Source of the DNA: a virus | Length of the DNA stretch: 23,280 nucleotides | Reading direction: 5' to 3' (one strand) | IMG/VR virus record: IMGVR_UViG_3300031963_000952 | Span: 1 to 23,280 of that record | Part shown: piece by piece, positions 17,749 to 22,339 of the stretch | How the letters are laid out: each line of letters opens with the position of its first letter | Numbering within the stretch: the stretch's first letter is position 1 | The notes under the pieces: model-generated | Told to the model about the DNA's origin: nothing | The model's input: only the letters and a program-made list of their open reading frames with translations | The model's database searches: none | Translations under genes and position numbers: made by a program

Positions 17749-18450
17749 TTAAAATTTTATATATCCATTTTCTAAATAAAATATATATCCTTTTTTAAAT
17801 ATAGAATGTAATCTATCAGCTATTTTAGTTATTTTAGGAGTTTTAACATCTATTTGTTCTCGAATATATATGTATAATGCTTTTTTATTAAAGATAATTA
17901 AACTATCACGTTTTCTAAATAATTCAAGTATAGCATCCGCTATTTTAGCATCAATTTCTTTAGGAAATAAAGTATATATATTATTAGTACAATACTCTAC
18001 AAATAGATCTGTAAAAAAAGCTATTTTATCATTATGAGATAATTTATCACTGGGTGAGTTATTTTCCTCTATAGTGTAAGAATATGAATTATCTTCTTCA
18101 AGAGTTTCTATAGGAGAAGAATTAACACGTTTTTTATAATTATTTTCATTATATAATATGAGCCAACGTTTAACTATAGTACCGAAATAAGAATATGCTT
18201 TAGTTCCTTTACTTGGATCAAATAAATGTATTTTAGTTAATAAAAATGTAATTATCTCATGTTGTAAATCCTCTATATTTTCTACTTCTGTATAATAAAA
18301 TTTAAAAGTATGAATGATATTTTGGGTTAATTTAAAAAACGCGTAATGAATTTTTTCACTATAAATTCTACTTCTTTCTTCAGGATTAGTATTTAAATTG
18401 TAAGCTACAATAGCATTTTCAGTTTCTTGGGTAAAGTAATTTTTTGACAT
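17749..18450 (-). CDS. late-transcription sigma factor, T4 gp55-like
   Basis: The 233-aa protein has a sigma-70 region-2-like core: IEDLQHEIITFLLTKIHLFD (59-78), then PSKGTKAYSYFGTIVKRWLI (79-98), then NNYKKR (103-108). The FDPSKG-(x)-AYSYFGTI-x2-RWLI run matches the core-polymerase and -10-binding helices of group sigma factors and of T4 gp55-like late factors. A clear region 4 is not visible, as in gp55, which recognises a -10-only promoter with help from gp33 and the clamp. The C-terminus (ITKIADRLHSIFKKGYIFYL) may form a small helical domain. The gene lies 1 nt from the membrane protein upstream. Directly downstream begins the late block with a TATTTATAAT motif, a plausible target of this factor. 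Confidence 0.85.
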   Translation of the reverse strand: MSKNYFTQETENAIVAYNLNTNPEERSRIYSEKIHYAFFKLTQNIIHTFKFYYTEVENIEDLQHEIITFLLTKIHLFDPSKGTKAYSYFGTIVKRWLILYNENNYKKRVNSSPIETLEEDNSYSYTIEENNSPSDKLSHNDKIAFFTDLFVEYCTNNIYTLFPKEIDAKIADAILELFRKRDSLIIFNKKALYIYIREQIDVKTPKITKIADRLHSIFKKGYIFYLENGYIKF

Positions 18451-21773: not shown

Positions 21774-21834
21774 AGAAAAGATCTGATCAGGTGCGCTTCA
21801 TTCGGGTAAAAGAGAGGCGTCTCAGATACATTTG

Positions 21835-22243
21835 TGGAGTCGGAGGGATTCGAACCCTCGTCCAAATGATGGCTCATTGAAATTCATTCACAAGCTTAGT
21901 TTATTTTTTTAAACAAACAAACAGTCGGTTGGTTCTTCAGCCATCGTCAACCTAACAACCAATGGTTTTTTAACTGTGTTTTATGAGCTAGTTAACGCAC
22001 TCTTTTTAGTAAACCTTCTGTTCCTAGGTGATGTTTACAATAACCCGTTTGGTTAAGCTGCTAATAGCAACTCAGCCTCTTCTACTACCGCTAAGCGAGT
22101 AATAGAAGTTGGGATACTCATCATATCCTCAGAGTTATAAACGTTGTCGTTTAAATTGTACATAGGTGATTATCGTGTTTCCAATGCTAACACGGCTTGC
22201 ATTTCAAAGAACTCTTACCACTTGTCAAAACCATGTCGACCCC
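21835..22243 (-). ncRNA. ssrA: tmRNA (transfer-messenger RNA)
   Basis: This is a complete one-piece tmRNA of about 409 nt that would rescue stalled ribosomes. The 5' end GGGGTCG pairs with CGACTCC near the 3' end as a 7-bp acceptor stem with a G3-U70 wobble, the alanyl-tRNA synthetase identity element, and A73 follows. CCA is not encoded. The 5' segment GACATGGTTTTGACA and the T-arm GAGGGTTCGAATCCCTC are canonical. Helix P2 forms between TTGAAAT-GCAAGC (22207-22195) and GCTTGT ... ATTTCAA (21895-21877). The tag frame ends in CTA TTA GCA GCT TAA (Leu-Leu-Ala-Ala-stop). The region after the stop is long enough for the usual pseudoknots. The phage would supply its own rescue RNA during infection. 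Presence in a phage is uncommon, although known in some other phages. Confidence 0.95.
22053..22163 (-). other. tmRNA tag reading frame, unusually long
   Basis: The frame that ends in the expected Leu-Ala-Ala-stop is open for 36 codons from an ATG at 22163-22161: MYNLNDNVYNSEDMMSIPTS, continuing ITRLAVVEEAELLLAA. The last upstream in-frame stop is TAA only two codons before the codon preceding this ATG. The ATG is at tmRNA position 81, close to the usual resume-codon position (about 90 in E. coli). The true resume codon cannot be read with certainty, so the tag may be somewhat shorter. The frame contains a 13-bp hairpin (22079-22108) and a 5-bp one (GGATA/TATCC, 22128-22112). Confidence 0.55.
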
Positions 22244-22267
22244 TTTAATACATATATACATATATAG

Positions 22268-22339
22268 TACTCCCGAGCAGAATCGAACTGCCGTTTCATC
22301 CGTGAAAGGGACGCGTCCTAACCCCTAGACGACGAGAGT
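22268..22339 (-). tRNA. tRNA-Glu (UUC)
   Basis: A 72-nt cloverleaf: acceptor ACTCTCG/CGGGAGT with one G-U pair, D-arm GTC...GAC around TAGGGGTTAG, anticodon arm CGTCC-CTTTCAC-GGATG with anticodon TTC, a 4-nt variable loop, and T-arm GGCAG-TTCGATT-CTGCT. The discriminator is A, and CCA is not encoded (CTA follows). It lies 24 nt upstream of the tmRNA on the same strand and is probably processed from the same transcript. Confidence 0.95.

Follow-up and report, generated by a model that had tools for sequence, protein, structure and literature searches.

tmRNAs are known from phages (402 of 18,146 genomes), where they have been proposed to maintain the hijacked translation machinery or to help degrade proteins of the host (PMC9004378). 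Mycobacteriophages, Bacillus phage G, and Melnitz-like and crAss-like phages carry their own tmRNA, usually without smpB, and in this they resemble the phage described here; unlike the tmRNA of the latter, theirs are described without a long tag with a conserved internal motif in the available portions of the reports. For tmRNAs, mRNA-like regions of 48 to 126 nt have been reported, and Ala, Gly, and Asp are all known as first tag residues (PMC1168896). In Mesoplasma florum, a long tag is recognized by a different protease, Lon, which sets a precedent (PMC8138137).

Here, we analyzed a 23,280-base virus record (the window), which is probably a fragment and in which an earlier note had proposed a phage tmRNA with an unusually long, hairpin-containing tag. 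The tmRNA is real and complete. In an Rfam search it matched RF00023 with 114.8 bits (gathering threshold, 47), covering model positions 1-374, and its PK1 is followed by the resume codon, an open frame, and a stop inside a P5-like hairpin (Table 1). Neighboring genes in the window encode a gp25-like baseplate protein, a baseplate wedge protein, a DNA primase, and a SegE-like GIY-YIG endonuclease; the endonuclease gene (1559-2014) adjoins the primase gene. A conserved 233-aa protein encoded at 17749-18450 shows a weak sigma-70 region 2 match below the Pfam cutoff and is possibly a phage sigma factor. The closest sequenced isolates of the window's phage are Flavobacterium phages of the genus Immutovirus (about 45% amino acid identity), and no RF00023 match was found in the one Immutovirus record examined.

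Table 1. Position and basis of the features at the tmRNA locus of the window
Feature	Position	Strand	Basis or remark
One-piece tmRNA gene, complete	21832..22243	minus	RF00023 over the full model, 114.8 bits; gene also called by ARAGORN
tRNA-Glu (TTC)	22267..22339	minus	Just upstream of the tmRNA
Pseudoknot PK1, CGUGUU/AACACG + GCAUUGG/CCUAUGU	22160..22194	minus	Rfam alignment and sequence
Resume codon GAC (Asp), 11 nt past PK1	22146..22148	minus	Alignment with relatives having GCA or GGN there
31-codon tag frame, DNVYNSEDMMSIPTSITRLAVVEEAELLLAA	22056..22148	minus	
Conserved core N-S-EDMMSIPTS	22104..22136	minus	Invariant or nearly so in relatives; pN/pS 0.11 for EDMMSIPTS
Hairpin A, GGAUAU-GAUGA-GUAUCC, over core codons	22112..22128	minus	Folding; recoding comparison
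Hairpin B (hairpin of the earlier note)	22079..22108	minus	Folding; 7 pairs changed on both sides
P5-like hairpin C, spanning ELLLAA and the stop	22054..22074	minus	Folding; 4 pairs changed on both sides
C-terminal tag part ELLLAA, like ordinary ssrA degrons	22056..22073	minus	Recognition presumed from known tags
Tag stop codon TAA	22053..22055	minus	

With the resume codon placed by homology, the window tag is predicted to be DNVYNSEDMMSIPTSITRLAVVEEAELLLAA, 31 residues in length. UUUAAAC-GAC (GAC starting at 22148) aligns with AUAAAC-GCA or AUAAAC-GGC in relatives, which are ordinary resume codons. The frame had previously been read as 36 codons from an ATG. It is indeed open through PK1 and ends in ELLLAA and a stop, but the true resume codon comes five codons later; since it is the GAC at 22148-22146, the tag has 31 residues rather than 36. 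The ATG (22163-22161) was rejected as the resume codon because it lies within PK1, as the AUG of the 3' strand CCUAUGU, and the MYNL that had been taken as the tag start is outside the tag. By alignment, the stop is 31 codons away from the resume codon, not within about 15, and in relatives the upstream half stays in phase as the best-conserved part of the frame. The claim of an unusually long tag with an internal hairpin was borne out, and the internal part of the tag looks selected for some role. The conservation would also fit the earlier suggestion that the tag recruits something besides the usual adaptor.

Peptides expected from the tag include NSEDMMSIPTSITR and EEAELLLAA. For the window and for locus L002, ARAGORN reports a tag of the EEAELLLAA type, which would mean that only this short stretch is translated and the remainder is not. 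We regard this as hardly conceivable: the 9-residue call for the window is wrong by the alignment with relatives, its resume point would fall within hairpin B, 77 nt away from PK1, the codons upstream of EEAELLLAA are the most conserved ones, and ARAGORN itself returns a long tag in most relatives. A purine-riboswitch-like appearance of UAUAA...GGAUAUG was dropped, as no such Rfam match was found.

Relatives were collected by DNA patterns in IMG/VR and by a 33-nt blastn match (97%) to a 735-kb phage (LR756501). Thirty further viral loci with the core in phase were found in several distinct phage groups, including the 735-kb phage, a few of the loci being near-identical. Their tags have 25 to 33 residues and share E-D-(M/I/V)-M-S-(I/L/F), mostly as N-x-EDMMS(I/L)PTS; examples are ANVYNAEDMMSIPTSITRVAVAEEAELLMAA, ANKYNSEDMMSIPTSITRVAEEAELLLAA, GKVYNSEDMMSIPTSITRTAVAEEVECLMAA, GNIYNSEDMMSIPTFITRVAQEAKPEVLEVA, GNVNLNTEDMMSIPTSLVMTPEVIEEVA, GNGYNSEDMMSLPTSLMKSFKTQEAELELA, and ANVYNSEDIMSIPTSLTRSVVTEEVELAVAA, while the 25-residue form is ANVELSTMTFEDVMSFVGADYAVAA. 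The 735-kb phage has the tag GDYKMNAEDMMSIPTSLTGKVATESFVEDLVLA within a tmRNA sequence that has diverged. The core is near constant although many of the contigs that carry it have few or no genes in common, and each fully read contig has a single copy of the motif, located in the tmRNA only. The window tag ends in ELLLAA, an LAA-like C-terminal end as in ClpXP-type ssrA tags, and those of relatives mostly end in xAA, some in LELA, LVLA, LEVA, or MELV. Group I introns occur beside or within two of the tmRNAs, one splitting the T loop in the 735-kb phage (L003:3247-3478) and one abutting the tmRNA match (L006:7609-7837). Directly 3' of another tmRNA end lies an HDV-like ribozyme (L104:1243-1317; RF02682, 48.7 bits), which suggests ribozyme processing of that end.

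Several candidates were excluded: the sole exact 17-mer match without a tmRNA (L018), unrelated loci without a tmRNA obtained with a loosened pattern (EEDVMAVPT and similar), and three PK1-pattern loci that are not tmRNAs (L107, L111, and L113). No useful match came from searching phage records, solved structures, and Pfam with the tag peptide. The tblastn search with the 31-aa tag missed even the 735-kb phage, which carries the core, and its negative result is therefore without weight. In 84,980 cellular species (one genome each), a degenerate E-D-M-M-S-I-P-T pattern had no match in a tmRNA; the only two pattern matches (L020 and L021) are not in tmRNAs and were excluded. The scan covered the EDMMSIPT type alone, in its Ile form. 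Within the collections searched, the EDMMSIPT-type tag is restricted to viruses.

In phages that share the gene order of the window, the tmRNAs adjoin the same gene block, and these syntenic tmRNAs encode three forms of the tag. Two of them (L106 and L120) have a 14-residue tag without the core, ANVDYSTEYYAVAA; those of the sister group of the window's phage (L114, L117, and L122) have a 25-residue tag with EDVMSF; and further ones have 29- to 31-residue tags with EDMMSIPTS. Because of these forms, the module behaves as an insert between a standard tag start and a standard tag end. The core is dispensable for a phage tmRNA, since related phages lack it. The tree of these phages is small and is built from three short proteins. 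About 0.6 kb downstream of the tmRNAs with 14-residue tags are GOLLD RNAs (L106:9601-10019 and L120:4155-4573). Cellulophaga phages Calle_1 and phi40:1 (L032:672-1031 and L034:672-1031) also have a tmRNA, with a 22-residue tag, AQIEANMEAVNAILNLEVAVGV, that lacks the core.

For the core EDMMSIPTS, pN/pS averaged over pairs is 0.11 when read in the tag frame versus 2.46 and 1.75 in the other two frames; it is 0.55-0.60 outside the core. Differences within the core are nearly all synonymous, with L017 and L102 using other Ser, Asp, Glu, or Leu codons. The core is constrained as RNA as well, so the peptide does not account for all of the conservation; this is seen in a codon choice that opposes the phages' own usage: GAG stands at 18 of 19 positions (26% in the phages), and ATC serves for 16 of 16 Ile codons (13% in the phages). 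The tag frame folds into three hairpins (-31.8 kcal/mol, z -3.7). The hairpin noted earlier inside the frame (hairpin B) is real and carries compensatory changes in relatives, as does hairpin C. At 0.170, covariation over the structure as a whole scores higher than any of 500 shuffles (mean, 0.113) or any slid register; the pair counts are valid for hairpins B and C as folded and void for hairpin A, which was one column off register. The arms of hairpin A differ in sequence between members, and its stability exceeds that of synonymous recodings with a p value of 0.002-0.01 for the main variants and about 0.13 for L017 and L093. Related sequences count as independent in these conservation and structure tests, which were picked after the data had been seen, so the tests are supportive rather than exact. 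The core is constrained both as peptide and as RNA, and there is good support for a genuine long tag that is under selection.

The codon choice, the stability of hairpin A, and the compensatory changes in hairpins B and C would all fit an added stretch that is kept solely for its hairpins, which might help the tmRNA to fold, protect it, or serve as a protein-binding site, with the peptide being incidental. Yet the low pN/pS of the core is exclusive to the tag frame, L017 and L102 keep the peptide with different hairpin arms, and E-D-x-M-S is retained in 25-residue tags whose arms are unrelated; we therefore consider an RNA-only role rather unlikely. It is much less probable still that the AUGAUG of the core starts a free small peptide with GAGG as its ribosome-binding site. 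Although GAGGAUAUGAUG resembles a start region in most members, GAGG is absent from L017, the first AUG is missing from the 25-residue and EDIM tags, and the codons on either side of the AUGs are equally conserved.

On balance, we lean toward a phage-specific two-part tag that acts as a peptide and combines an internal docking or degron module with an ordinary hydrophobic C-terminal degron. The phage tmRNA, presumably charged and translated in the usual manner, would enter stalled ribosomes, probably with the SmpB of the host. Among the phage records, an SmpB gene was found only in the 735-kb phage, so the other phages probably use host SmpB; most contigs are fragments, which makes such an absence weak evidence. 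In the 735-kb phage, the SmpB gene (L035, LR756501 199506-199931) is far from the intron-bearing tmRNA. The appended tag of 31 residues would consist of an ordinary start (D/A/G-N-x-Y-N), the added module (x-E-D-M-M-S-I-P-T-S and an E/V-rich linker), and the ordinary hydrophobic end ELLLAA, while the three hairpins may keep the long frame compact until the ribosome melts them. Most likely, the module is a docking site that brings tagged proteins to an AAA+ protease or its adaptor, whether this supplements or replaces the contacts of the short host tag, and we infer that the core is read by such a protease or adaptor of the host. That the tag signal of distinct phage groups sends rescued proteins to a receptor, be it a protease, an adaptor, or another partner, other than that of the host tag, amounting to a takeover of the trans-translation output, is a possibility that we put forward tentatively.

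Two other peptide-based readings concern the receptor. The core could specifically be a degron for Lon, like those of the long Mollicute tags. Lon reads the M. florum tag (PMC8138137), and N-x-E-x5-(V/I)-P-T is common to that tag, AANKNEENTNEVPTFMLNAGQANYAFA (PMC9097571), and the phage tags, a weak likeness seen post hoc, with shuffle p values of 0.0003 to 0.08 over seven phage tags compared with this single reference tag. The 25-residue phage tags have E-D-V-M-S-F but lack P-T, the end of most phage tags remains ClpXP-like, and the phage records yielded no Lon gene, all of which makes a Lon-specific core unlikely. A ClpP-like gene is present on two near-identical contigs and may encode a prohead protease. 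Alternatively, the tagged or freed peptide might bind and alter a host protein without directing degradation. Its strong conservation, confined to phages, would suit such an effector, which would also be made in quantity if infection cuts host mRNA. The degron-like end is, however, retained in most members, and the peptide resembles no known protein in the phage records, solved structures, and Pfam, leaving an effector role improbable in our estimation. With the two-part tag as the preferred reading, phages seem to add their own signal to rescued proteins. Because the module is seen only in phages and is present or absent among syntenic tmRNAs of related phages, the tag itself appears to be a selected output of the phage tmRNA. 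The module may also yield a new orthogonal degron.

A text search of the literature for MMSIPTS or DMMSIPT found no paper using either string, and the searchable literature, which leaves most subscription journals outside, yielded no conserved internal tag motif common to distinct groups of phages. Like a canonical one-piece ssrA tmRNA, that of the window has tRNA-like ends, P2, PK1, a resume codon about 11 nt past PK1, a hydrophobic tag end, and a P5-like hairpin at the stop. Whereas the canonical tag has about 10 residues, that of the window adds about 20 that include a conserved core, and its frame contains two further hairpins. The Lon-read tags of Mollicutes are the closest precedent in function. 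The extended M. florum tag is likewise long (27 residues), and its internal residues matter besides its end; it has the weak N-x-E-x5-(V/I)-P-T in common with the phage tags. Unlike those of the phages, this tag is carried by cells without ClpXP, lacks the E-D-x-M-S core, and ends in NYAFA. Tag length alone has precedent; what is new is the internal motif and its conservation.
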